Positions 9,416 through 32,744 of a stretch of DNA of 64,000 nt are shown here, piece by piece. The first letter of the stretch is position 1. Each line of letters opens with the position of its first letter. Under the pieces are notes generated by a model. The model ran no database searches and was not told the origin of the DNA. It saw only the letters and a list, made by a program, of their open reading frames with translations. The stretch comes from Thiomonas arsenitoxydans. Lineage in GTDB: Bacteria > Pseudomonadota > Gammaproteobacteria > Burkholderiales > Burkholderiaceae_C. The position numbers and the translations under genes are program-made. The stretch spans positions 1,798,001 through 1,862,000 of the forward strand of contig NC_014145.1 in the NCBI RefSeq assembly GCF_000253115.1, written 5' to 3'.

Positions 9416-11101
9416 TCAGCCCAGATCGGCATCGAGCACCGCGCCGCGATGCGAACTGCCGACCAGCGCCGCGAACTTGGCCATCACGCCGCGGGTGTAG
9501 CGTCTGGCGGGCGGCGTCCAGGCAGCGCGGCGGCGGGCGAGTTCTTCATCGCCGACGTGCAGGGTCAGGCTCAGGGAAGGCGCGTCGATGGTGATGCGGT
9601 CACCTTCCTGCACCAGGGCGATGGAGCCGCCCACCATGGCTTCGGGGGCGACGTGGCCGACGACCATGCCCCAGGTGCCGCCGGAGAACCGGCCGTCGGT
9701 GATAAGCCCAACCGACTCACCCAACCCCGCGCCCACAAGTGCCGACGTGGGCGCGAGCATCTCGGGCATGCCGGGGCCGCCCTTGGGCCCAAGGTAGCGC
9801 AGCACCATGATGTCGCCGGCCTTGATCTTGCCGGCCAGAATGGCTTCGAGCGCGCTTTGCTCGTCGTCGAACACGCGCGCGGGGCCGGTCATGCTGGGTT
9901 TTTTCAGCCCGGTGATCTTGGCCACGCAGCCGTCTTCGGCCAGATTGCCCTTGAGGATGGCCAGGTGGCCGTGGGCGTACATCGGCTTGTCGATGGGGCG
10001 AATCACGTCTTGCTCCGCGCTGGGCTGGGCGGGAACGTCCCTGAGATTCTCGGCCACAGTCTTGCCGTTGATGGTGATGCAGTCGCCATGCAGTACACCG
10101 GCTTCAAGCAGAATTTTCATCACTTGCGGAATGCCGCCAGCGCGGTGCAGATCGGTGGCGACATATCGGCCCGAGGGCTTCATGTCGCAGAGCACTGGGG
10201 TGCGCTTGCGAATCACCTCGAAGTCTTCGATGGCAAACGGCACTTCGGCGGCATGCGCAATGGCCAGCAGATGCAGCACCGCGTTGGTCGAGCCGCCCGT
10301 GGCCATGACCACGGCAGCAGCGTTTTCCAGCGCCTTGCGGGTGACGATGTCGCGCGGCTTCAGCCCGGCGCGCACCGCGGCGAGCAGCGCCTGGCCAGAA
10401 TCGCGCGCGGACTGCACTTTTTCCTCATGCACATTCGCCATGGTGGACGAGTAAGGCAGCGACATGCCCATGGCCTCGATGGCGCTGGACATGGTGTTGG
10501 CGGTGTACATGCCGCCGCAGGAGCCGCTGGTGGGCACAGAGCACTGCTCGATGGCGTCGAAATCGGCATCGCTCATACGCCCGGCGGCGTGTTCGCCCAC
10601 GGCCTCGAAGACCGAGACGATGTTCAGATCCTTGCCCTTGTAATGGCCCGGCAGAATGGTGCCGCCATAGACGAAAATACCCGGCACATTGCAGCGCAGC
10701 ATACCGATCATGGCGCCGGGCATGTTTTTGTCGCAGCCGCCCACGGTGACCACGCCGTCCATCCACTGGCCCTGCACGCAGGTCTCGACGCAGTCGGCAA
10801 TGACTTCGCGCGACACCAGCGAGTACTTCATGCCCTCGGTGCCCATGGACATGCCGTCGGCAATGGTCGGCGTGCCGAACATCTGCGGATTGCCGCCAGC
10901 GGCGCGCACGCCCTCGATGGCGGCGTCGGCCAGGCGCTGCAGGCCGGAGTTGCACGGGGTGATGGTGGAGTGCGCGTTGGCAATGCCGATCATCGGATTG
11001 CTGAAGTCCGACTTCTTGTAGCCCATGGCATAGAACATGGAGCGATTGGGCGCACGCGATGCGCCCACGGTGATGTTTTCGGAACGCAGTTTCTGGGGCA
11101 T
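9416..11101 (-). CDS. ilvD: Dihydroxy-acid dehydratase
   Basis: IlvD converts 2,3-dihydroxy-isovalerate and its methyl homologue to the 2-keto acids in valine and isoleucine synthesis, in the cytoplasm, using an iron-sulfur cluster. The 561 residues show [11 protein letters not shown], the cluster-region Cys motifs GGCDKNMPG and [12 protein letters not shown], and the C-terminal [11 protein letters not shown]. The frame can be extended to a TTG at 11149, but the ATG at 11101 ([10 protein letters not shown]) gives the usual family N-terminus. It is divergent from lgt. Confidence 0.95.
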
Positions 11102-11262
11102 GGCAGGCAGTGGGAGCGGGTCGACAATAACGTCATTGTCGTGCGGCAAGCGGCGGCGCGCACCGTCATGGAAGCGGCGCAGTAGTATCCAAAGGTAAAT
11201 ATTGGTTTGCCCGCGCGCCGCTTGAAAGGATTGCTCAAGGCAAGCCCGTACACTTCACGCCC

Positions 11263-12090
11263 ATGCTGATCCACCCCGACTTCAATCCCATCGCCCTGCA
11301 ACTTGGCCCAATCAAGGTGCATTGGTACGGCATCATGTACCTGCTGGGCTTCATCACTTTTTGGCTGCTGGCGCAAAAGCGCCTCAAAGACCAGCCTTAT
11401 GCGCGCCAAGGCTGGACCTCGCGCGATATTGAAGACTTGCTGTTTGCCGGTGTGTTGGGCGTGATTCTGGGGGGGCGCACCGGCTACGTGCTGTTCTATC
11501 AGCCGGACTATTACTTCTCTCATCCGGCGCAGATCGTCGCGGTGTGGGACGGCGGCATGTCCTTCCACGGCGGGCTGCTCGGCGTGATGGTGGCGGCCTA
11601 CTGGTTTGCGCGCACCCGGCGCTATTCGTGGCTGCAGATCATGGACTTTGTCGCTCCGCTCATTCCGCCGGGCCTGGCGTTCGGGCGCATCGGCAACTTC
11701 ATCAACGGCGAGTTGTGGGGACGGCCAGCGCCCGCTTGGTGGCCGGGGGCGATGATCTACCCCAAGTCCGGCAGCATGGTGCCGCGCTTTCCCTCCGAGC
11801 TCTACGAAATGTTCCTCGAAGGCATTGTGTTGTTCGTGGTGCTGTGGTGGCTGTCGCGCAAAGAGCGGCCGCGCGGTTTCATTGCCGGGTGCTTCGCGCT
11901 CGGCTATGGGCTGGCGCGTTTCACCGATGAATTTTTCCGCCAGCCCGATGCGTTTCTCGGCTATCTCTGGTTTCACCTCACCATGGGGCAGTTGCTGTCG
12001 ATCCCGCTGATCATTCTGGGCAGCGGCATGATCTGGTGGTCGCTGCGGCGCAAAAACCGTCTGCTGGCGCTGGGGCAGTCGGCTTCTTGA
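11263..12090 (+). CDS. lgt: Prolipoprotein diacylglyceryl transferase
   Basis: Lgt moves a diacylglyceryl group from phosphatidylglycerol to the lipobox Cys of prolipoproteins in the inner membrane. The 275 residues contain about seven membrane helices, the conserved HGGLLG, the Lgt signature GRIGNFINGELWGRP and PSELYEMFLEG. Length and motifs are those of the family. It ends 8 bases before the convergent PIN-domain gene. Confidence 0.96.
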   Translation: MLIHPDFNPIALQLGPIKVHWYGIMYLLGFITFWLLAQKRLKDQPYARQGWTSRDIEDLLFAGVLGVILGGRTGYVLFYQPDYYFSHPAQIVAVWDGGMSFHGGLLGVMVAAYWFARTRRYSWLQIMDFVAPLIPPGLAFGRIGNFINGELWGRPAPAWWPGAMIYPKSGSMVPRFPSELYEMFLEGIVLFVVLWWLSRKERPRGFIAGCFALGYGLARFTDEFFRQPDAFLGYLWFHLTMGQLLSIPLIILGSGMIWWSLRRKNRLLALGQSAS

Positions 12091-12098
12091 CATCGGTT

Positions 12099-12545
12099 TC
12101 AGCCTGGCGCCGACGCGCTCTCGGGCGGGCCGATGTGCAGGCCGAGCGGCCTGGCGCGCCGCGCCAATTGCAGCACTGCGCGGTCGCGGCTCAACAGGTT
12201 TGCTGCATGCTGCGCCAAGGCAAGGTCGAGAAACATTTGGTCGTCAGGATCGGCACACACCAAGCAGTGCTGCGTGGGCGGTGTGGCGCAGCACTGCCCC
12301 CAACGCGCAAAACAATCGGCCAACTTATCGGCTGATGCCTGGGGGTCGAACCGCCTGGCCAGCGCCGGATAGTGCACCACGCGCAAGGCCTCGACCTGCA
12401 TGGCGGCACAGTAAATCCAGCGCACGCTGCCGCGCTGTATGGCCTCGGCCCAAGGACGCACGCGCGGGTCGTCGAACAGCGCCCAGTCGAGCAGCACCTG
12501 GGTGTCGAGAACGCACAGGGCAGGGCGAAGCAAAGGGGAGGTCAT
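12099..12545 (-). CDS. PIN-domain protein, VapC-like but solitary
   Basis: This 148-residue protein has a PIN nuclease layout: an N-terminal Asp in VLDTQVLLDW, a central Glu in QVEALRV, and a C-terminal acidic cluster CADPDDQMFLDLA followed by LLSRDRAVL. These residues would bind Mg2+ for RNA cleavage. It resembles the family annotated as a putative toxin component of the PIN type. No antitoxin-sized gene lies next to it; the flanks are lgt and the candidate 6S RNA. Whether it is a toxin or a housekeeping RNase is unknown. Confidence 0.75.
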   Translation of the reverse strand: MTSPLLRPALCVLDTQVLLDWALFDDPRVRPWAEAIQRGSVRWIYCAAMQVEALRVVHYPALARRFDPQASADKLADCFARWGQCCATPPTQHCLVCADPDDQMFLDLALAQHAANLLSRDRAVLQLARRARPLGLHIGPPESASAPG

Positions 12546-12559
12546 GCGGGGGAGGTGTC

Positions 12560-12730
12560 TGCCGGAACCTGATTGAGCGTTGATCCCTGAACCCTACTGG
12601 GACAGGTGGGCAAGGTCACTGCGCTTTGGGGACGTCTGCGCGAGACGTCACGCGCACACACAGAATTTCCAAGCCCGAGGCACAAATTTATCGGTTCAGG
12701 AAATGCCGACCCAACCAAACCCGACAGACG
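12560..12730 (-). ncRNA. ssrS: Candidate 6S RNA
   Basis: Downstream of zapA on the same strand lies a -10 box TACAAT (12742-12737), then a structured stretch. An outer stem pairs CCTGAACC (12700-12693) with GGTTCAGG (12593-12586). A bubble-like GATAAATTTGTG follows the left arm. Next, GGGC-TT-GG pairs with CC-TT-GCCC, and an apical hairpin has arms GACGTCT and AGACGTC. The left arm CCTGAACCGATAAATTT resembles CCUGAGCCGAUAUUU of E. coli 6S RNA, and zapA-ssrS synteny is common. 6S RNA mimics an open promoter and sequesters sigma-70 polymerase. The exact ends are estimates. Confidence 0.65.
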
Positions 12731-12769
12731 AGACTGATTGTAGGGCGATGAATCGCGGCCGGGGAAGAA

Positions 12770-13102
12770 TCAGAGCAATTTGCCCTCGGCGCCCAGGGCA
12801 TCGTCGAGCTGACGGGTGAGTTGGGCCACGGCCTGCGCATCTTCTTCAAACGCCAGCGACGCCTGCGCCGAAGCGCCTGCGGCCTTGTTCGCATTGCGCG
12901 ACTCGATCAGGCTGTGCGCCAGATTGAGCGCGGCAAGCACGGCGATCCGCTCGCGGGCGCGCACCTTGCCCATATCGCGAATGGCGCACATCTCGGTGTC
13001 CACTTCGCGCACGGCGGCCAGCAGCGCGGCTTGCTCGTCGGCGGGGCAGGCCAGGGTGTAGATCTGGCCCATGATGTTCACATCCAGCGTGGTCGTGCTC
13101 AT
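12770..13102 (-). CDS. zapA: Cell division protein ZapA
   Basis: ZapA is a small cytoplasmic protein that crosslinks FtsZ filaments at the division ring. The 110 residues have the typical N-terminal strand region (LDVNIMGQIYTLACPADEQ) and a long C-terminal coiled coil starting around RARERIAVLAALNLAH. The gene overlaps the upstream coiled-coil gene by 4 bases (ATGA), which points to co-translation. Confidence 0.92.
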   Translation of the reverse strand: MSTTTLDVNIMGQIYTLACPADEQAALLAAVREVDTEMCAIRDMGKVRARERIAVLAALNLAHSLIESRNANKAAGASAQASLAFEEDAQAVAQLTRQLDDALGAEGKLL

Positions 13103-13350
13103 GCGTGTGGGTCGGGCTCGCCCGAAATGGAAGGGGTCTGATCCAGCCGTGCCAGCAATCGGTCGATGCGCTGGGTGGCATCGTGCAGGCGCTGACGCAT
13201 CTGGTCGCGCTCGGCTTCGAGCGATTGCACCCGCTCGGCCAGCAAGGCGTTGGTGCGCAGCAACTCGTTGTGACGCAGCAGCAGCCGCTCAACGCGCGAT
13301 TGCAACTGAGCGATGGCGGGGGAGGGCTGTCGTTCGTCCATGCGAGGCAT
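13099..13350 (-). CDS. Small coiled-coil protein, ZapB-like (TIGR02449 type)
   Basis: This short protein of about 83 residues is almost all heptad-like helix (ARG/LEU-rich, with LQSRVERLLLRHNELLR and VQSLEAERDQMRQRL). Genes of this kind sit directly before zapA in beta- and gammaproteobacteria, so a role beside FtsZ is inferred. Starts at ATG 13350 or 13341 are both possible; a GTG at 13365 is less likely. Its stop overlaps the zapA ATG. Confidence 0.75.
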   Translation of the reverse strand: MPRMDERQPSPAIAQLQSRVERLLLRHNELLRTNALLAERVQSLEAERDQMRQRLHDATQRIDRLLARLDQTPSISGEPDPHA

Positions 13351-13411
13351 TCTAAAGTCGGCCACCCGAGAGTCGGCAAAACGACGCTGTCGCCCGGCTA
13401 AGATGACGGTT

Positions 13412-13620
13412 GTTGGTGCTCGCGCGGTGGTTCACGCTGCGCAGTTAAACGGGAAACAGGAAGAGCCATGCCCCCGGCAGATGCTCCGGCCTGTGCTGCC
13501 CCCGCAACGGTCAGCGACCGAAGGCGCAAGCCTTCCGTTCGGACAAGCTCTCCACTGAATTTTCGGATTTGGGAAGGAGGTTCGGATCGCGTCGCCAGCC
13601 CGGATACCGGCCAACGACGA
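13412..13620 (+). promoter_or_regulatory. Cobalamin (AdoCbl-type) riboswitch
   Basis: The region has the ordered hallmarks of a cobalamin riboswitch: GGTGCTCGCGC, then GTTAAACGGGAA, then the core GCTGCCCCCGCAAC (about 13496-13509), and the 3' B12 box AGCCCGGATACCGGCC at 13597-13612. It lies before a BtuB-like receptor, so cobalamin should repress the uptake genes. A hairpin (GCCGTG / CACGGC, 13740-13759) close to the start codon of the receptor could be part of the expression platform. Confidence 0.92.
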
Positions 13621-13786
13621 GAAGACGCGCAGCTTCGGGGCGAAGGGGCGCATCAAGGCCAGCCGGGTGCGCGCAGCGCAGCGCCTGCGAAGGTTGAGAT
13701 GCGCTCTGGGCCCTGCCGCGGCGCACTTCAGCCGCGCCAGCCGTGCGGGGGAACACGGCAGCGCTCATTCATCCGGAAATTCAGTC

Positions 13787-15718
13787 ATGTCTCAGCAGTT
13801 CCCTTCAAACGGCGTTGCTCCAGCCTCGTCTGGGCCTCGCGTGGTCCACTCATCTCAACCGATTTTCTTTCGCACCGCGCTGGCCGCGGCCATCAGTCTG
13901 GTCGGGCTGAACGCGCAGGCGCAGACCGCTCCGGCCGACGCCACCACGCTGCCGCCGGTGGTGGTGTCGGCCACGGGCTACCCGCAGCCGCTGGCCGATG
14001 CCTTGCCGGGCGTCAGCGTGATCACCCGCGAGCAGATCGAGCAAAGCGGTGCGCAAAACCTCACGACCTTGCTGCAGGTGGCTGGCGTGCAGGTGACGAG
14101 CAACGGTGGCCCTGGGCAGTCGGGCAATGTGTATGTGCGCGGTTTTGGCGGGCCGGATGTACTGGTGCTGCTCGACGGCGTGCCCATGAACGCACAAGAC
14201 GCCACGGGCGTCGCGTATCTCAACAACTTCACCACCGATCAGATTCAGCGCATCGAGATCATCCGCGGCAATGTGTCGGCCATCTACGGCTCGGGCGCGA
14301 TCGGCGGAGTGGTGCTGATCACCACACGCGCGGGCAGCAAAAAGCCGCAGGCCTCGATCTCGGTCACCGCGGGCAGCCGCAATACGGCCACCGTGTCGGC
14401 CAATGCCAGCGGACAGGTCGGCAACACGGCCTTGCAGGCAGGGGTCAGCCGTTATACGACGCAGGGTGTCAGTGCAATCAACCCCGCCCAGCTCAGCAAT
14501 GCCAACCCGAACAACAACGGCTACGGCAACACGACGATGAACGGCTCGATCGTGCAGACCCTGGCACCGGGGCAGTCGCTGGGCCTGCGCGCATTCAGTA
14601 GCAAGGGCCGCGCCAGCTACGACAGCTATGGCGCCTACGCCAGTCCGACCGATACCAATCTCAGCAGCACCTCGCAGGACCTGTATCAACTGTTCAGCGA
14701 CAACCAATTGACCGCCGCTTGGAAGTCTCATCTGAGCGTCTCGCAGCAGAGCACCACCAACACGACCGAGAACTTCAGCGCCTACCCCTACAGCGGTACT
14801 TATCGCACCCGGGTTCAGCAACTGCTGTGGCGCAATGTGGTGCAACTCGGCAGCGGCTGGACGGCCACGGGTGGGCTGGAATGGCAGAGCCAGGGCATCA
14901 GTTCGATCACCGGTTCGATTCCCTCCAGGGATCGCCAAGCCAAGGCGGCCTTCGTCGGACTGGACGGCAGCGTCAACGGCAACGAGTTTCAATTGAATCT
15001 GCGCCATGACGCGATTGACGGCTACTCGGGCCAGAACACCGGCTATTTCGGCTACGGACGAGAACTGGGCAGCGGTTTCAAAGCGATTGCCAGCTATTCC
15101 ACCGCTTTCAATGCGGCGCCGCTGGGCTATCTGTACGCGCCTTACTACGGCAACGCCAATCTGAAGGCGGAGAAGGCGCACTCTGTCGAGGCCGGTTTGC
15201 AGTGGTCACAAGGGGCGAACGTGCTGCGGGCCACGCTGTTCCAGACCAAGGCGACCGACCAGTGGCAGTATGACTTCACGACCAGCACCTTCCAGAACAT
15301 CGCCAGCAGCCGCACGCGGGGGTTGGAGTTGACCGGGCGCGGCGCGTGGAAGGGCTGGGCGTATGACGCCAACCTCACGCTGCAACAACCCGTGAATACC
15401 AGTCTGCCCGGCGACCCGACGCTGCAGCGCCGCGCCCGCAGTCTGGCCAATGTCTCGGTCAACCACGAGCTCGCCTCAGTGCTTTATGGCGCTGCGGTGC
15501 ATTACAGCGGCCCCCGTTGGGATAATGGTTCGACCGGCCGGGTCACGCTAGGGAGCTACACCACGGTCGACCTCACCGCCAGCGGCGCGGTGTCGAAAGA
15601 CTGGAGCTGGAATGCGCGGGTGCAGAACCTGTTCAACAAGAAGTATCAGACGGTTTACGGCTACAACCGCGAACCGCTGGGCGTGTTCGTCGGTCTGACC
15701 TGGCGGCCCGCGTTCTGA
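13787..15718 (+). CDS. btuB: TonB-dependent outer-membrane cobalamin receptor, BtuB-like
   Basis: This 643-residue TonB-dependent receptor has a signal sequence ending near LNAQAQ. A TonB-box-like PPVVVSATG follows, then the plug domain with VYVRGFGGPDVLVLLDGVPM and RIEIIRGNVSAIYGSGAIGG. A beta-barrel ends in a terminal Phe, as outer-membrane barrels do. The riboswitch upstream and BtuCD downstream identify the substrate as a corrinoid. The open frame reaches back to 13667, but that extension would run into the leader, so the ATG at 13787, just before the signal peptide, was chosen. Confidence 0.9.
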   Translation: MSQQFPSNGVAPASSGPRVVHSSQPIFFRTALAAAISLVGLNAQAQTAPADATTLPPVVVSATGYPQPLADALPGVSVITREQIEQSGAQNLTTLLQVAGVQVTSNGGPGQSGNVYVRGFGGPDVLVLLDGVPMNAQDATGVAYLNNFTTDQIQRIEIIRGNVSAIYGSGAIGGVVLITTRAGSKKPQASISVTAGSRNTATVSANASGQVGNTALQAGVSRYTTQGVSAINPAQLSNANPNNNGYGNTTMNGSIVQTLAPGQSLGLRAFSSKGRASYDSYGAYASPTDTNLSSTSQDLYQLFSDNQLTAAWKSHLSVSQQSTTNTTENFSAYPYSGTYRTRVQQLLWRNVVQLGSGWTATGGLEWQSQGISSITGSIPSRDRQAKAAFVGLDGSVNGNEFQLNLRHDAIDGYSGQNTGYFGYGRELGSGFKAIASYSTAFNAAPLGYLYAPYYGNANLKAEKAHSVEAGLQWSQGANVLRATLFQTKATDQWQYDFTTSTFQNIASSRTRGLELTGRGAWKGWAYDANLTLQQPVNTSLPGDPTLQRRARSLANVSVNHELASVLYGAAVHYSGPRWDNGSTGRVTLGSYTTVDLTASGAVSKDWSWNARVQNLFNKKYQTVYGYNREPLGVFVGLTWRPAF

Positions 15719-24914: not shown

Positions 24915-25154
24915 CACGTCGGCACGCCTGGCCTGTGCTGATCGGGCTGATTGGGGCCGCTGATCCTGGAGTTTGCTCCGCATGACATCGGCTGGCCGTT
25001 GCCGGTGATCCGCGGTATGGCATTCTCGGCGCCGCTTACCATGTTCACAAGTCGCATCGCCCCGGCGCACTGGCTGCGGCGGCTTCGGTTGCTGCTGACC
25101 CCGGAAGAGACCGATCCGCCAGCAAGCTCGCCGTACTGCAGACCCCGCCCCTGA
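24915..25154 (+). pseudogene. C-terminal remnant of glucan glucosyltransferase opgH
   Basis: The 451 bases between the methyltransferase and opgD hold a broken OpgH tail. One frame gives RRHAWPVLIGLIGA. After a frameshift near 24960 the other frame gives EFAPHDIGWPLPVIRGMAF, then SAPLTMFTSRI, then RLLLTPEETDPPASS and a stop at 25154. OpgH proteins end in exactly this pattern: a last membrane helix, a TSR motif, and LFLTPEE. Nothing upstream of 24915 back to 24770 is recognisable. An intact but short opgH lies on the opposite strand at 26882. Confidence 0.6.
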
Positions 25155-25220
25155 AGGGCGCCATCGCTGCACACCGATGGCGCAGGCCGATCCCCTGGCG
25201 CAAGAACTGAGGACACATTG

Positions 25221-26834
25221 ATGCATCGACGCGATTTTCTGCGCGGCAGTGCGGCGAATTTCGCCGCGCTGGCGCCCTGGCCAATGGAATTCAAGCAACA
25301 AAAGCGGTCGCCACCGGCGCCGGCGCGCGGCATCGCGCACTTCGGAGATCCGCAGCAGTTCTCCTTCGACTGGTTGAAGGGGCTGGCGCAAGCGAAGTCG
25401 CTCACCGCTTACAGCGAACCGGTCGCGCCGCTGCCGGCTGCGGTGCAGAAGCTCTCCTGGGACCAGTGGCAGTCGATCCGCTACCGTCCCGAGCGCACGC
25501 TGTGGTGTGAGGACGATCTCTTCTTTCGCATCCGCTTCGATCACCTCGGCTACACCATGAAGCGCTCGGTGCGCATGTACGCCGTGGAGCGCAATACCGC
25601 GCGCCAGATCCTGTTCGATCCGACACTGTTCGACTACAGCCGCTCGGGGCTGAAGCCGGGTGAGATTCCTAAGCAATTGGGCTTTTCCGGATTCAACGTG
25701 CTGTTTCACACCAACTGGGAGGACGACCGGGCGGTGTTCCAGGGTGCCTCCTACTTCCGCGCCGTCGACGCCAGTGGCCAGTACGGCATGTCACAGCGTG
25801 GACTGGCGATCGACACAGGCATGGCCCGGCCGGAGGAATTCCCTGACTTCGTCGCCTTCTACCTGCAGAAGCCCGCACCCGAATCGACGCTGCTCACCGT
25901 GTATGCCCTGCTCGACTCCCCGAGCGTCACCGGCGCTTATCGTTTCATCATCGATGTGGCGAGCACCCTGGTGATGGACGTGGACTTCACGCTCTACCCG
26001 CGCCGTCGGATCGAGCGGCTGGGCATCGCGCCGGGCACCAGCATGTATCTGGTCGGGGAGAACGACCACCGCGTGGCCGACGACTGGCGCCCGCAGATCC
26101 ACGACTCGGACGGCCTGCAGATGCACACCGGCGTCGGAGAGTGGATCTGGCGGCCGCTTACCAACCCGGCGCATCTTCAGGTCAATTCCTACCTCGACGA
26201 CAATCCGCGCGGTTTCGGCCTGATGCAGCGCGACCATAACTTCGCCGACTACCAGGACGACGGGGTCTGGTACGACCGGCGGCCGAGTTGCTGGGTCGCC
26301 CCGAAGGGCGCCTGGGGCAAGGGCGCGGTCATGCTGGTGGAAATCCCCACCATCGATGAGACGATGGACAACATCGTGGCGTTCTGGAATCCGGCCGAGG
26401 AAATCGTTCCAGGCCGCGACTACAGCTACGGCTACCGCCTGTACTGGTGCCGCGAGAATCCCTTCGCATCCCGACTCGGACACGTCCAAGCGACCCGCGA
26501 CGGCATCGGCGGAATCGTCGGTCAGAAGCGCAGTGAGTTCTCCTGGCGCTTCGTGATCGATTTCGTCGGCGGTGATCTGCCGATGCTGGTCGCCAGCGAC
26601 AAAGTCCGCGCCGTGGTCAGCACCTCGCAGGGCCAGGTACAACTCGTGTCGGCCCGCCCGTTGCTGCCCCTCAAGGGCTGGCGCGCGATGTTCGACCTGG
26701 TGCCCGGTGAGGCCGTAGAGCCGATCAACCTCAGGCTGTTCCTGCAGCTCGACGGCCAGGCGCTCACCGAAACTTGGATCTACCAATACACGCCGCCGCC
26801 GCTCGCCGTGCAGCGCAGTTACGTCCAGACCTGA
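25221..26834 (+). CDS. opgD: Glucan biosynthesis protein OpgD (Tat-exported)
   Basis: OpgD and OpgG shape osmoregulated periplasmic glucans; E. coli members are beta-1,2-glucan hydrolases (family GH186). This 537-residue protein begins MHRRDFLRGSAANFAALAPW, a twin-arginine signal like that of E. coli OpgD. The MdoG domain runs from about residue 50 with FAPxxF-type stretches such as QFSFDWLKGLAQ, then YFRAVDASGQYGMSQRGLAIDTG and GFGLMQRDHNFADYQDD, the most conserved family segment. The ATG at 25221 follows GAGGACACATTG; a TTG at 25218 is the alternative. It converges on opgH. Confidence 0.9.
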   Translation: MHRRDFLRGSAANFAALAPWPMEFKQQKRSPPAPARGIAHFGDPQQFSFDWLKGLAQAKSLTAYSEPVAPLPAAVQKLSWDQWQSIRYRPERTLWCEDDLFFRIRFDHLGYTMKRSVRMYAVERNTARQILFDPTLFDYSRSGLKPGEIPKQLGFSGFNVLFHTNWEDDRAVFQGASYFRAVDASGQYGMSQRGLAIDTGMARPEEFPDFVAFYLQKPAPESTLLTVYALLDSPSVTGAYRFIIDVASTLVMDVDFTLYPRRRIERLGIAPGTSMYLVGENDHRVADDWRPQIHDSDGLQMHTGVGEWIWRPLTNPAHLQVNSYLDDNPRGFGLMQRDHNFADYQDDGVWYDRRPSCWVAPKGAWGKGAVMLVEIPTIDETMDNIVAFWNPAEEIVPGRDYSYGYRLYWCRENPFASRLGHVQATRDGIGGIVGQKRSEFSWRFVIDFVGGDLPMLVASDKVRAVVSTSQGQVQLVSARPLLPLKGWRAMFDLVPGEAVEPINLRLFLQLDGQALTETWIYQYTPPPLAVQRSYVQT

Positions 26835-26881
26835 CCATGGCGCCGCGGGGGCCTGACGCGCAGCGGCTGGTCTGGGGACGC

Positions 26882-28678
26882 TCAGGAATCCGGCTCCGGC
26901 GTCTCTTCCCCCAGTTGCGGAGCTGGCACCCAGAAAAAGCCCAAGGCATGGGCTAGGCTTCCCAGGCGCTCGCTGGAGGTCCAGCTAATCAGCCAGGGCG
27001 AACTCAGCAGCCCGAGCGTGATCGGCGAGAACCACAGGCCGACCACCGGGTCGAACCAGGCCAGCGCGGCGAAGGCCAGACCGAGCACGAGGTGCTCGCG
27101 CAGGTCGGCAAGGGTCGACAGCACCGGGATGCGGCGAGCCTCGCGCACCTGGGCCGACCAGCCGGAGGGAATTCCCAGCGCCATTGCCAGCAAGCTCTTG
27201 GTCTGGGTCATCATGATCACCGGCGCCATCAGCATCGCCAGGGGAATATCGAGCGCCACGGATCGCACGATGCGCGCAGCGCCGCCGAAGCTGCGCCTGC
27301 GGGCGGCGGACGACAGCATCCAGGTCAATCCCATCAGCTTGGGGCCGAACAGCAGCAGCAGCGTGAGCCACAGCACCCAGGAAGTCGAGATCCCCATCAG
27401 CGTGGCCTCGCGGGAAAAGATCACCTGCAAGGCGCTGGTCAGCAGCAGCAACAGCCAACCCGGCGAGGTCAGGTAGGCCGAGGCGCCGAGCAGCAGGTGC
27501 AGCCGGCTGGCCCAGTGCAGCCCCGAGGTGCCGAGCAGCCGCAGGTGTTGGAGGTTACCCTGCATCCAGCGCCTGTCGCGCTTGGCGTAGTCGATGATCG
27601 ACGGCGGGAATTCCTCGTAGCTGCCGTCGATCATCACCATGTGAACCGCCCAGCCACGTCGGCGCAGCAGAGCCGACTCGAACATGTCGTGGCTCTGAAT
27701 ATGGCCGCCTAACGGATGCTTGCCCGGCAACTCGGGCAGGCCGCAGCTCTGCGCGAACGCGCGCGTGCGCACAATCGCGTTGTGGCCCCAGAAATTGGCT
27801 TCCGAGCCCGACCACCACAGCAGGCCCGCTGTGGCGATGGGGCCGTAGGCTTCGCTGGCGAACTGCATCCAGCGCTGGAACAGGGTGTGCGCGTTAGTGA
27901 TCATCGGCACCGTCTGCAGCAATCCGATCGACGGCCGTTCCTCCATGATCGACGCCATGCCCACGATGGCGTCACCGCTCATCAGGCTGTCGGCGTCGAG
28001 CACCAGCATGCACTCGTAGGCGGCGCCGAACCGGCGCACCCAATCGGCGATGTTGCCCGGTTTGCGTGCGGTGTTGTGCTCGCGCCGTCGGTAGTACACC
28101 GCGATGGGGGCCTCGCGCGCCAACGCGAGCCACGCCGCCTGCTCGCGCTCGCCGTTGTCCTCGCTCGAGTCGCTCAGCACGAAAAAGTCGATCCAGGCGG
28201 CTCCCCCTGCCGCAGCGATGGAGCGCGCCATGGTGCGCACGCGGCCGAAGGTGGCGTCGACATCCTCGTTGTAGATTGGCATCAGTACCGCGACGCGATG
28301 GCGCAGCGGCTGCGCCGGGCTGGGTACCGGCGTGAAGCCCGGATGATCCCCGCTGATCAGCTTGTAGAAGCCGATGGCCGAATTCACGAAACCGAAGGAG
28401 ATCCACCCGAACAGCGGCACGAACATCACCAGCAGCACGATGTCGAGCGCGTTGACCTGTTCGCGCGCGAGCACCATGCGCAGTTGCGTGGACGCCGCCA
28501 GCGCGAGCACGGCCGTCAGCGCGATGAGCAGCAGGCGCTTGATCAGCAGGCCGTGCGGCTGGGTTTTCACCTCGATCGCTCCCGGAGGCGGGCCGTCCAG
28601 GCGCTGGATGGGCATGTCCAGCGCGGCCTCGGGAGGCAGCATCGGGGGCGCGGGGTTTATCGCGTGATTAGCGGACAT
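26882..28678 (-). CDS. opgH: Short OpgH-type glucan glucosyltransferase
   Basis: OpgH is the inner-membrane GT2 enzyme that builds the beta-1,2-glucan backbone from UDP-glucose and passes it to the periplasm. The catalytic residues are visible: MPIYNEDVD (133-141), DAD (228-230), SHDMFE (329-334) and the RDRRW motif (367-371). Two helices precede and about five follow the catalytic domain. At 598 residues it is much shorter than E. coli OpgH (about 847), lacking most of the N-terminal cytoplasmic extension. It is the last gene of an overlapping four-gene operon. Confidence 0.9.
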   Translation of the reverse strand: MSANHAINPAPPMLPPEAALDMPIQRLDGPPPGAIEVKTQPHGLLIKRLLLIALTAVLALAASTQLRMVLAREQVNALDIVLLVMFVPLFGWISFGFVNSAIGFYKLISGDHPGFTPVPSPAQPLRHRVAVLMPIYNEDVDATFGRVRTMARSIAAAGGAAWIDFFVLSDSSEDNGEREQAAWLALAREAPIAVYYRRREHNTARKPGNIADWVRRFGAAYECMLVLDADSLMSGDAIVGMASIMEERPSIGLLQTVPMITNAHTLFQRWMQFASEAYGPIATAGLLWWSGSEANFWGHNAIVRTRAFAQSCGLPELPGKHPLGGHIQSHDMFESALLRRRGWAVHMVMIDGSYEEFPPSIIDYAKRDRRWMQGNLQHLRLLGTSGLHWASRLHLLLGASAYLTSPGWLLLLLTSALQVIFSREATLMGISTSWVLWLTLLLLFGPKLMGLTWMLSSAARRRSFGGAARIVRSVALDIPLAMLMAPVIMMTQTKSLLAMALGIPSGWSAQVREARRIPVLSTLADLREHLVLGLAFAALAWFDPVVGLWFSPITLGLLSSPWLISWTSSERLGSLAHALGFFWVPAPQLGEETPEPDS

Positions 28679-28699
28679 GGCGTATGCGTGCGCGGTGAC

Positions 28700-30229
28700 T
28701 CAATCCTCGAGCGTGACCACGACGGTCTCACTGAGCGCCTGCGTCCCGCGGCGCAGGAACAAGCGGAACTCCTTTTGCGCCAGCCCCGTCAGGCGCAGGT
28801 CCAGCACGACGCGCCAGGAATTTTTGCGGCCGTACAGGCGATGGGCGCGCAGGCCCATGACCGCGGAGGCCGGCAGGTTGGTCAGCGCCTGCACGCCGCT
28901 GGCATCATCCAGCCCGGCCAGCACATCGCCGCGGAAGTCGAACACGTACTTGCGCGTGGACGGATCGGGCGGGGTGTCGGCCTGGCCGGCCGGCCCGATC
29001 AACAGATTGCAGCAGTGCGCGTTGGCGTCGGTGCTGGGATCGGCGGATGTCCACGTCAACCGGTACGCCACGTCGCGGCGCTGTCCGGCACGCGCCGGTT
29101 CGTCGGCAACCCAGAATGCGCCGATGTTGTCCACGGTCTCCGAGACCGACGCCATCTCGTAGAGCATCACGCTGCCCGTGCCCCAGTCGCCCTGGGGCTG
29201 CACCCACAGCGAAGGCCGCAGTTCGTAGAACAATTCGTCGTCCTCGTAGTTGGTGAAATCGCGATCGCGCTGCATGAGGCCGAAGCCGCTCGGGTGATCG
29301 GCGCGGAAGGCGTTCACGCGCGCCTGAGCCGGGTTGTGGAGCGGGCGCCAGATGCGCTCGCCGGCTCCGGTGCGGATGGCCAGGCCCCCGGAGTCGTGCA
29401 CCTGCGGGCGCCAATCGCCGATCGGATGGGGGTGGGGCATGCCGTCAGCGCGCGTCTGGTCGTAGAGGAACATGCTGGTCTGCGGGGCGATGCCCAGGCG
29501 CTGCACATCGCGTCGCAGGAAGAGTGCACAACGCACGTCCTGCACCACGTCCACGCCCTCGTGACGCCAGGTGTCGATGGCGTAGGCCCCGGCCAGCGAA
29601 GGGCCGTCGAGTAGGGCGTGGGTGATCACGTGGTCGTCCGACGGCTGCTCGATCCAGAAGTCGGTGAATACTGGGAACTCCTCCGGCTCCGGCAGGCCGG
29701 TGTCCACCGAGATGGCCCGTGCCGAGAGGCCGTAACGGTTGGATGTCCCCGAGCAGCGAAAGTACGAGGCCCCGAGAAAAGCCATCCAGTCGGTGCGCGC
29801 GTCGGGCGCCAGCACGCGCCAGCCAGCCGGATCGGCGGTCTGTCCGCCGCCGAACAGCCCGTGCGTGTCGATCAGTCTCCTGGCCACGCCGTGGTCGACG
29901 ACATGGATCGACACGGCCAGCGGCGCCACGCCACGGCGCGGCGGGAACAGGCGCACCGTGCCCGTCACCGCTTCGGCGGCGCCGTAGGCCAGGCGCACGA
30001 AGGCGCCGGAGTCCAATGCCGCGTGCGCCGACGGCCGGGGCGCCACGTAGGGACGGCCCGCGAGCCGGCGCGCGCGCTCGACCAGCAGATCCCAGGAAAA
30101 CGGCCGCGGCGCCCCCCAGCGGCCGCCGCCTGCGGCGAAGGCCATGCCGGGTTGCAGCAGCCCGGCGGCCAGCGAAGCAAGCGCGCCGCCGGCCTGGCGG
30201 CGGGTGAACTTGGGAGCGGAGGGGGTCAT
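28700..30229 (-). CDS. opgG: Glucan biosynthesis protein of the OpgG/OpgD family
   Basis: This 509-residue MdoG-domain protein is a second copy of the family in the window. The N-terminus has FTRRQAGGALASLAAG, a twin-arginine-like export signal, with cleavage after about FAAGGG. The domain includes PFSWDLLVERARRLAG, YFRCSGTSNRYGLSARAISVDTG and FGLMQRDRDFTNYEDDE. Its ATG overlaps the stop of the periplasmic adaptor gene (ATGA), and opgH follows 21 bases later. Whether it is functionally OpgG or OpgD cannot be decided; the opgG symbol rests on its place before opgH. Confidence 0.85.
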   Translation of the reverse strand: MTPSAPKFTRRQAGGALASLAAGLLQPGMAFAAGGGRWGAPRPFSWDLLVERARRLAGRPYVAPRPSAHAALDSGAFVRLAYGAAEAVTGTVRLFPPRRGVAPLAVSIHVVDHGVARRLIDTHGLFGGGQTADPAGWRVLAPDARTDWMAFLGASYFRCSGTSNRYGLSARAISVDTGLPEPEEFPVFTDFWIEQPSDDHVITHALLDGPSLAGAYAIDTWRHEGVDVVQDVRCALFLRRDVQRLGIAPQTSMFLYDQTRADGMPHPHPIGDWRPQVHDSGGLAIRTGAGERIWRPLHNPAQARVNAFRADHPSGFGLMQRDRDFTNYEDDELFYELRPSLWVQPQGDWGTGSVMLYEMASVSETVDNIGAFWVADEPARAGQRRDVAYRLTWTSADPSTDANAHCCNLLIGPAGQADTPPDPSTRKYVFDFRGDVLAGLDDASGVQALTNLPASAVMGLRAHRLYGRKNSWRVVLDLRLTGLAQKEFRLFLRRGTQALSETVVVTLED

Positions 30230-31461
30230 GGTGCCGTGGGGGTCGATGGCGCGATGGCTGGGTCACGGATCGGAAGACCGGGTTTCGGGCCTGACGCGCC
30301 CGGCGCCGCGCGCCAGCCGATGATCGCCAGTTGTCCCGGACGCACCGGCCCGCCGAGGATCTGCGTGCGATGGCCGTCGCTGGGACCGGCGATGATGGAC
30401 ACGCTGCGCGCCGTGCCGTCGCGATCGAGCAGGCAGAGGCTGCTGCGTTCGAGTTCGGGTTGCGTCGAGCAATGGGGGGCGAAGGCCAGCGCCGTGTTCG
30501 GCGCCAGCAGCACATGGTGGCGAACCGGCAGGGTCATTTTGAGCGTGGCCGCGGCGGCCGGCGGAATGCGCGGATCGGGCGCCAGCGCGAACTCGGCCTG
30601 GCGCACACCCGCCGGGTCGGTGGTGGTACGCAGCAAAGTGGCAGCGCGCTCTGCGCCATCGATACCGGAGATGACCACCTGTGCCGACTGCCCCGCGGGC
30701 AGCGTCCCGATACCAGGGGGCAGCGGCACGATTACGCGCGCGGGGGCGTCCAGCGGCGCCAGTTGGAGCAGCGGCTGTCCGGCCCGGACCTGACTGCCCG
30801 GCGCCACCAGCGGCCGGACCACCACCCCGGCGATGGGAGCGCGCGGCAGCGTGGCCTGCAGATTGGCCATGTCGTCGTCGAGGCGGCGCTGGGCCGCAGC
30901 GAGCAGCACACGATCCCGCCGCACCGCGAGTGCCGCGCTGCGCACCGCCGCGAGCGCGGTGTCCATCTCGTCCAGCGAGGGCACGCGGTGGGCCGACTCG
31001 TGCCACACCTTGTCGTACCGCGCGATCCGGGCGTCGGCCAGCCTGGACTCCACGAAGGCACGCGCCAGTTGGTCGCGCGCGGCGGCCAGCGTCAGGCGGT
31101 CGGCATCGATAGCCTGTGCAAAAGCGCTGGTATCCACCACGGCCAGCGCCTGGCCGGGCGCCACCGTGTCGCCCGGAGCCACCGGTACTGCGGTGATCAA
31201 GGCATCTCGCGGCGCGCGCACCGTAATTTCGCCGACCAGGTAGGCCCGGCCTTTGATGGACAGCTGCGGACGCAGGTCGCCGCGAATGATCGGCGCCATG
31301 TAGTACGGGGTCGTGTTGCCCTCGAGAAAACGCAGCAGCAAGCTGCCCGCCACCCCCAGCGCCAGCAGCAGCAGCGTGATGCTGATCCAGCGCCGCGCGC
31401 GACTGCGTGGGCGCGCGTCGAGCAGCACATCGACCTGCGAGGCGTCGTTCGGCTCAGTCAC
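30226..31461 (-). CDS. HlyD/RND-type periplasmic adaptor (membrane fusion protein)
   Basis: The 411-residue protein has a short cytoplasmic start, one membrane anchor (about residues 25-45, ITLLLLALGVAGSLLLRFL) and a lipoyl/biotinyl-like half-motif (ITVRAPRDALITAVPVAPGD). An alpha-helical hairpin of about 90 residues follows, then the second half-motif APIAGVVVRPLVAPGSQV and beta-barrel domains. Such adaptors bridge an inner-membrane pump to an outer-membrane factor. The GTG start at 31461 overlaps the stop of the outer-membrane factor gene by 8 bases; the longer frame upstream is a shadow of that gene. No pump gene is adjacent. Confidence 0.82.
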   Translation of the reverse strand: MTEPNDASQVDVLLDARPRSRARRWISITLLLLALGVAGSLLLRFLEGNTTPYYMAPIIRGDLRPQLSIKGRAYLVGEITVRAPRDALITAVPVAPGDTVAPGQALAVVDTSAFAQAIDADRLTLAAARDQLARAFVESRLADARIARYDKVWHESAHRVPSLDEMDTALAAVRSAALAVRRDRVLLAAAQRRLDDDMANLQATLPRAPIAGVVVRPLVAPGSQVRAGQPLLQLAPLDAPARVIVPLPPGIGTLPAGQSAQVVISGIDGAERAATLLRTTTDPAGVRQAEFALAPDPRIPPAAAATLKMTLPVRHHVLLAPNTALAFAPHCSTQPELERSSLCLLDRDGTARSVSIIAGPSDGHRTQILGGPVRPGQLAIIGWRAAPGASGPKPGLPIRDPAIAPSTPTAP

Positions 31462-32482
31462 TGCATGCTCCGACTGCCAACGGCATGTCTCCGACCGAGC
31501 TGCGCGTCGGCTCGCGCAGTCTGGCCTGGTTCCTGCGCAGACCGACGTCGGTCCACAGATCGATCGCCGCGCGCGCCAGCCGCGCCCGGGTGTCGATGCG
31601 CGCCTCGCGCACCGACAGTTGCGCGGTTTGCGCCACGTACAGCGAGGCGAAATCGCCGGTTCCCAGACGGTAGGCGGCGCGCGCATCGTCCGCGGTGCGT
31701 TCAGCGTCGCGCTCGAGCTCGGGCAGTGCGGCCTCGCGCGCCTGCACCTCGGCCAGCGCGGCGCGCAGGCCAGCCGCTTGCGCGTCGTCGCATGCCGCCG
31801 CGGCCGCGCCGTCGGCGTCGAGCCAAGGCACTTGAGCGCCGTCGGCGATCCACAATCCCAGTTGCCATGGCGCGACCGCCGCACGCCGCGCCAGCGTCGC
31901 TTCTGCCGCGGCCAGGCGAGCGCGCGTGTCGGCAAGCGCGCTCGCATTGGTGCCGATCAGCGACGCCGCCAGTCCGCTGTCAACCCCCGAGACCAGCCCG
32001 GCCTCGTAGCGCCAGCGCGCGAAATCGGCATCGTCGTGGAACCGATCCTGGAACGCCTGGCGCAAGGCGAGGTTCCATTGCAGGCGGCGCACCTCGACGT
32101 AGGCGCGCGCGATGCGCGCGGCCTTGCGCTGGCGCACGTCGGCCAGCCGCACGGCCTGCACTTCGGGGGAATCGGGCATCTGCTGCAGCATGCGGCCGAC
32201 CCAGCGGGCAAGGCGGAAGCGCCACTGTTGCGAGCGCGCCTGCAGGTCGGCCAGGGCGCGGGCTTCGCTGACCAGCAGCGGGTCCGCCGCCAGCCCGTGG
32301 TTGATCAGCCGAGCCAGCAAGGGGTCGTCGACCTCTGTCCACCACGGCACACTGGGAGCCGAGTCGGCGCTCACTGCGGCTTCGGATATCTGTGCACCGG
32401 CGGGGCTTTGCAGCGAGGCGCAACCGCCCAACGTGCACAGCACGAGTAACCCGATCCAAAGGGCTTGGAATGTTCTGAACAA
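31454..32482 (-). CDS. Outer-membrane efflux factor (TolC/NodT type), lipoprotein
   Basis: A lipoprotein signal, RTFQALWIGLLVLCTLGGC, ends in the lipobox Cys. The rest is two repeats of long Ala/Arg/Leu helices (ARALADLQARSQQWRFRL; YRLGTGDFASLYVAQTAQLS) typical of outer-membrane factors. About 342 residues from the TTG at 32482 is shorter than the usual 450-480, so the barrel or one helical pair may be reduced. The longer GTG start at 32602 would place 40 residues before the signal, so it was not used. It heads the operon with the adaptor, opgG and opgH. Confidence 0.72.
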   Translation of the reverse strand: MFRTFQALWIGLLVLCTLGGCASLQSPAGAQISEAAVSADSAPSVPWWTEVDDPLLARLINHGLAADPLLVSEARALADLQARSQQWRFRLARWVGRMLQQMPDSPEVQAVRLADVRQRKAARIARAYVEVRRLQWNLALRQAFQDRFHDDADFARWRYEAGLVSGVDSGLAASLIGTNASALADTRARLAAAEATLARRAAVAPWQLGLWIADGAQVPWLDADGAAAAACDDAQAAGLRAALAEVQAREAALPELERDAERTADDARAAYRLGTGDFASLYVAQTAQLSVREARIDTRARLARAAIDLWTDVGLRRNQARLREPTRSSVGDMPLAVGACSD

Positions 32483-32576
32483 GGGGCGTCGGAATCTGAA
32501 ACAGGAGGCAAAAATCGATGCCGTGATGGGGGAATGGTACGAAGTGTCGCGGCCTGCACCCGCGCCGACGACGCTT

Positions 32577-32744
32577 TCATGTGCCAACCGGAACGCGCTC
32601 ACGGTAGGGCATGAGTGTACCTACCGCCGCGAGCACAAAGTCGCTTCTGGCGGAGTCGAACCAGACTTCGTCGTAGCCGCCGACCTGATTGAAAGCCCTC
32701 AGAATCTTGTCCGAAACGGGATCGAGCAGTAATGCAACTGCCTT
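32577..32744 (-). pseudogene. Remnant of a YVTN-type beta-propeller gene
   Basis: The 365 bases between the efflux factor and the MazG-like gene hold one protein-like stretch. A frame without a start codon reads KAVALLLDPVSDKILRAF, then GGYDEVWFDSARSDFVLAAV, and stops at 32577. The GGYDEVW motif followed by hydrophobic strands recalls YncE/SMP-30 beta-propeller repeats. It is probably a residue of a lost gene. Elsewhere in the gap (32483-32576 and 32745-32847) I see only a weak CCGGG/CCCGG hairpin near 32794-32815. Confidence 0.35.

Follow-up and report, generated by a model that had tools for sequence, protein, structure and literature searches.

A conserved operon joins osmoregulated glucan synthesis genes to a MacA-type adaptor and a TolC-family protein predicted to lack most of its outer-membrane barrel

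Osmoregulated glucan synthesis is thought to finish with release of the glucan into the periplasm, and proteins of the TolC family are regarded as channels of the outer membrane. What, then, do genes of both kinds do in one operon of Thiomonas arsenitoxydans? The operon lies in a 64,000-nucleotide stretch of contig NC_014145.1 (positions 1,798,001 to 1,862,000), referred to here as the window, and consists of four consecutive minus-strand genes for a TolC-like protein, a MacA-type periplasmic adaptor, an OpgD/OpgG-like GH186 protein (OpgD2) and a short form of the glucan synthase OpgH (Table 1). An earlier note on this DNA had proposed that the adaptor and an outer-membrane factor carry the glucan across the envelope, so that it is secreted. 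The gene row and junctions described there were all confirmed, with an 8-base overlap between the TolC-like and adaptor genes, a 4-base overlap (ATGA) between the adaptor gene and OpgD2 and a 21-base gap between OpgD2 and OpgH. The TTG at 32482 is supported as the start of the TolC-like gene because in the orthologue from a genome of the same genus (G008) a TAG interrupts the longer frame ahead of that codon, and an open frame of 342 amino acids runs from the equivalent TTG.

The TolC-like protein of the window had no Pfam match in a family scan and scored 23 bits against outer_NodT (TIGR01845), far under the curated cut-off of 210. A protein database search yielded 27 relatives of 298 to 441 amino acids, and the closest database protein was from Thiomonas sp. 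Bio17B3. The alignment A1 was built from 26 of these relatives (P0032 was excluded) and the window's protein, and all 27 aligned members matched outer_NodT at E <= 0.001; the top 29 VIA rows were likewise all of the TolC family. The spans that form the helical tips are 34 and 44 residues long in 35 of 35 alignment rows. Both barrel-hairpin regions, by contrast with canonical channels, are reduced in length in 30 of 30 family rows; usable channel proteins for this comparison came from 5 of 44 motif-screened loci. A predicted single-chain model of the window's protein contains no beta strand. The case for barrel loss is built from length, alignment and this one model, and it leads us to predict that the TolC-family protein of the operon lacks most of the outer-membrane barrel sequence. 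The protein is further predicted to be lipid-anchored at the outer membrane. Because the barrel-building stretches of the family are absent, this protein by itself is unlikely to be a pore, and export through it is unlikely. Gene order and family names had suggested that it takes the glucan across the outer membrane, but against the shortened regions and the strand-free model we regard this as very improbable. Given the missing barrel stretches, the claim that adaptor and outer-membrane factor secrete the glucan is not supported, and secretion would be possible only via a separate outer-membrane protein. As for the name outer-membrane factor, TolC/NodT kinship and the helices bear it out, but not the barrel that it implies.

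We know of no TolC-family protein without a barrel. Among the matches listed in the open-access literature (other journals were not covered), we found no report of a barrel-less TolC and none of opgH together with HlyD, a membrane fusion protein, an outer membrane factor or TolC; within the same coverage there was nothing about the operon itself, on a periplasmic glucan of Thiomonas (the match concerned Halomonas) or on opgH of Novosphingobium. In 26 of 27 members, the segment that replaces the first hairpin has a net positive charge, and for the window's protein its moment ranks within the top 4.3% of sequence windows. An amphipathic helix at this site was kept as a hint only, since the moment is unremarkable (42-73%) in P0026, P0027, P0029, P0030 and P0031.

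To see how far the gene set extends, genomes were scanned with the TolC-like alignment. The 31 loci obtained lie in Novosphingobium/Sphingomonas as well as in Thiomonas-type genomes and include the isolate Novosphingobium capsulatum NBRC 12533; three of these loci (L068, L070 and L078) are contigs already counted among the same-genus genomes. The adaptor gene is present in 29 loci, OpgD2 in 26 and OpgH in 26, and the gaps fall at contig ends except in L089. That locus (9872-14044) has a three-gene form with TolC-like, adaptor and OpgH genes and truly lacks OpgD2. The 8-base overlap of the TolC-like and adaptor genes is present in 26 of the 29 loci with both genes, where starts were chosen with the window's protein as guide. 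In L085 the adaptor and OpgD seemed at first to be fused, but this was rejected as a stop codon separates the two frames. The earlier note had named beforehand a gene order found in no other genome as grounds for giving up its proposal; the order recurs in both groups, which confirms that it is conserved over two classes of Proteobacteria, more than expected by chance.

The adaptor/TolC-like pair follows the type of OpgH. OpgH was found in 35 of 346 Sphingomonadales genomes. Where it is at least 61% identical to the window's OpgH, all four genes are present (10/10; L084, L095, L109-L112 and L147-L150), whereas at 55% identity or less the TolC-like gene is absent in 25/25 and any adaptor match in 24/25, with OpgD beside OpgH in 24/25. 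A tree was built from 44 OpgH proteins, and those that go with the pair, 30 in all, make up one side of a branch with support 100; the tree was made by a quick method, has long branches among the rows without the pair and leaves out 15 loci. Profile searches did not find the TolC-like gene in 45 distant opgH neighbourhoods, and as a control the same search recovered TolC-like and adaptor genes in 6/6 loci, four of which are not rows of the adaptor profile. OpgH occurs in 58 of 369 genomes of the window's class and in 71 of 385 genomes of the class of genome G157, and outside G157 and the window's own genome (G000) no OpgH of these two classes exceeds 44% identity. The TolC-like gene was absent from 20 opgH neighbourhoods sampled out of those 127 genomes; a distant adaptor-like frame (E 4e-11) was seen in L125. 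Thus, the adaptor/TolC-like pair occurs with one OpgH clade only.

The adaptor matches the HlyD_3 and RND_mfp models, is nearest to MacA by sequence and has the lipoyl, hairpin and beta domains and the predicted N-terminal membrane anchor of MacA-type adaptors. At its hairpin tip, R148, V152, S156, R159 and P161 are invariant in 24 rows. A Walker-A ATPase gene adjoins the nearest relatives of the adaptor (the survey used 25 of the 26 adaptor loci and recognised the ATPase by the Walker A pattern, not by a family search), and OpgH and OpgD occupy that place here. This, with the conserved operon, upholds the earlier view that synthesis genes have been joined to an export pair, although not the part of it that made the outer-membrane factor the glucan exit. 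No pump was found in the operon or among ten neighbouring ORFs (open reading frames; about 20 to 42 kb of the window), as the earlier note had observed. Genome-wide, four MacB_PCD matches and nine RND matches (eight over the cut-off) all lie outside the window; no genome-wide search for MFS pumps was made. The adaptor and TolC-like protein might serve one of these unlinked pumps or combine with a full-length channel, and might lie next to opgH only incidentally. However, the co-occurrence with one OpgH clade (10/10 versus 0/25) and the conservation over two classes make this quite improbable.

OpgH of the operon scored 828 bits against the curated MdoH model NF003962 (cut-off 328), and OpgD2 carries the MdoG domain PF04349 (E 1e-133). 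For the family traits we drew on excerpts of PMC10514313, PMC11228985, PMC11842490, PMC4446572 and PMC3391258, which concern GH186 residues, OpgH and the adaptor tip. According to the review passages among them, the OpgH family makes and extrudes beta-1,2-glucan. Read off alignments, OpgD2 keeps the equivalents of the catalytic residues D300, R359 and D388 of EcOpgD, and the loop A motif described there for GH186 clades 1-4, GXGG (GW in clade 2), was not found in it by alignment. A second GH186 protein, OpgD1, is encoded convergently and has the loop A motif GIGG. According to the same excerpts, cyclic glucohexadecaose synthases (GH186 clade 3) are recognised by W76, D343 and R477 of the Xanthomonas cyclase XccOpgD; all three equivalents are kept in OpgD1 and only D343 in OpgD2. 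We therefore predict from sequence that OpgD1 is a glucan cyclase. OpgD1 and the operon form a module that is duplicated in the window's genome; the two copies are 97.8% identical and have different neighbours (the second copy is locus L056, 8655-16141). The genome accordingly has two OpgH matches, one per copy, compared with a single match in each of 21 genomes. Within the genus, OpgH is present in 4 of 13 genomes, the same ones that have strong TolC-like matches (a contig end cuts the gene in G009), and a close OpgD1 adjoins four of the five module copies, with none beside the G009 copy.

Table 1. Positions in the window of the operon genes and of the duplicated module around them
Feature	Position	Strand	Description
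TolC-like gene	31454-32482	-	TTG start, 342 amino acids; predicted barrel-less TolC/NodT-like lipoprotein, lipobox LGGC
MacA-type periplasmic adaptor gene	30226-31461	-	GTG start, 411 amino acids; a membrane helix at the N-terminus and a long helical hairpin are predicted
TolC-like/adaptor gene overlap	31454-31461	-	8 bases, GTGACTGA
OpgD/OpgG-like GH186 gene (OpgD2)	28700-30229	-	509 amino acids; twin-arginine-like N-terminus
OpgH glucan synthase gene, short form	26882-28678	-	598 amino acids
OpgD1, second, convergent GH186 protein	25218-26834	+	close to Xanthomonas cyclase XccOpgD; accessory, in the window's lineage
7.5-kb duplicated module	25147-32630		OpgD1 to TolC-like gene; other copy at G000:C2, about 698.7-706.1 kb

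How could these parts work together? Observed are the conserved gene set, its restriction to one OpgH clade and the shortened barrel regions. The reading that we favour, at somewhat less than an even chance, is that OpgH, the adaptor and a helical tube form a complex that spans the periplasm, is lipid-anchored at the outer membrane without piercing it and delivers the glucan inside the periplasm. OpgH would replace the ATPase pump of the related adaptors and push the nascent beta-1,2-glucan into the periplasm beneath the adaptor ring, and the hairpin tips of the adaptor would dock onto the tips that the TolC-like helices have kept. A TolC-like trimer, held at the outer membrane by its N-terminal lipids only, would form the helical tube, lead the glucan past the peptidoglycan and free it at the inner face of the outer membrane. 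OpgD2 may trim or reshape the chain, and OpgD1, where present in the window's lineage, may cyclise chains. A tube without a barrel is not expected to pierce the outer membrane, therefore delivery into the outer periplasm is predicted. More tentatively still, we suggest a machine of a new type that spans the envelope: a polysaccharide synthase would have replaced the pump of a MacA-type tripartite exporter, and a barrel-less TolC-family tube, ending below the outer membrane at its inner face, would take beta-1,2-glucan past the peptidoglycan to the outer periplasm.

The main competitor is hand-over of the glucan to an unlinked porin in a composite translocon: the helical tube would dock beneath a separate beta-barrel of the outer membrane whose gene lies elsewhere, and the glucan would be secreted. 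This arrangement fits all other features of the complex just described, and excerpts of PMC9601211 offer a parallel in short OPX proteins that lack the membrane-spanning part and work with a separate beta-barrel. However, across the 31 loci no cluster of flanking ORFs apart from the operon genes is common to both groups at a steady position (the ORF caller was crude and strands were sometimes wrong), and no outer-membrane barrel family was found in the ten flanking proteins scanned. We consider this arrangement unlikely, if still a serious contender. We give less credence to a tether, in which the adaptor and the TolC-like protein position OpgH and OpgD between the membranes or sense envelope width, and no glucan passes through the tube. 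Barrel loss would remove the need for an open channel, and the helical tips and lipobox are retained as a tether would have it; on the other hand, helical spans kept to the residue are unneeded for a mere tether, though docking could also explain them.

Several points weigh against delivery through a tube. Pfam OEP is matched at E <= 0.01 by 11 of the 27 TolC-like family members. The structural model covers the window's TolC-like protein alone, and since only single chains were modelled, the OpgH-adaptor and adaptor-tube contacts are predictions. The second barrel-hairpin region is less reduced in the sphingomonad members (143-190 residues) and least shortened in P0028 (441 amino acids, Novosphingobium sp. 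1949), where it reaches a near-canonical 190 residues next to a first region of 80. Family members and canonical channels could not be told apart by the residue composition of the shortened regions. The tip spacing of the adaptor is not an exact match for RxxxLxxxxxxS, the motif given for MacA-type adaptors in the excerpts cited above. Finally, as four MacB-like and eight RND genes lie elsewhere in the genome, the adaptor could serve another pump.

Some observations concern single proteins or loci. The second hairpin site of P0028 holds a long, charged, proline-containing stretch. Six of the ten neighbouring ORFs in the window have a family, namely GlnD, MazG, peptidase M24, a beta-CASP metallo-hydrolase, a lysine-decarboxylase-like protein and a methyltransferase, and four have none. 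In L074 (943-2664), alone among the scanned loci, an MFS transporter gene ends 22 bases ahead of the TolC-like gene as called, and a TRAP permease stands near the operon in L075 alone among the neighbours scanned. L083 has an additional adaptor-like frame about 4 kb beyond OpgH. A transposase and TrbI near the operon in L071 and a phage integrase in L086, one locus each, hint at movement between genomes.

The operon shares parts with several known systems and equals none of those compared here. Like the MacA-MacB-TolC/NodT tripartite exporters, it has a MacA-nearest adaptor, an adjoining TolC-like gene and conserved helical tips, but OpgD and OpgH are found where MacB would be, and most of the barrel sequence is missing from the channel protein. 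With periplasmic glucan synthesis by OpgG-OpgH or OpgD (GT2-type OpgH, GH186) it shares an OpgH that passes the curated MdoH cut-off and the GH186 catalytic residues, whereas the adaptor and barrel-less TolC-like genes are extra, the latter missing from the 45 more distant opgH neighbourhoods. Synthase-dependent secretion of alginate, cellulose and poly-N-acetylglucosamine uses TPR proteins and dedicated beta-barrels; it likewise couples a membrane synthase to periplasmic and outer-membrane-anchored parts, but in the operon the TPR proteins and beta-barrels give way to an adaptor and a TolC-like protein predicted to be barrel-less. The composite OPX/beta-barrel translocon EpsY-EpsX of Myxococcus, as far as excerpts of PMC9601211 describe it, also has a polysaccharide-linked envelope protein minus the outer-membrane-spanning part; it belongs to another protein family and to the Wzx/Wzy pathway, and it alone of the two has a known barrel partner. 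Composite translocons, with their pore-less OPX protein, are a functional parallel to the operon rather than its relatives.

The operon suggests that exporter parts can organise osmoregulated glucan synthesis. By keeping its helical tips at exactly the same length while dropping the membrane-crossing part, this conserved lineage would be a natural experiment separating two functions of TolC. The destination of the glucan and any contact between tube and OpgH become testable questions with isolates that carry the operon and with Sphingomonadales relatives that lack the pair. If our reading is true, the protein would be the first of the TolC family known to have no outer-membrane pore, and the complex the first conduit dedicated to moving osmoregulated glucans across the periplasm.
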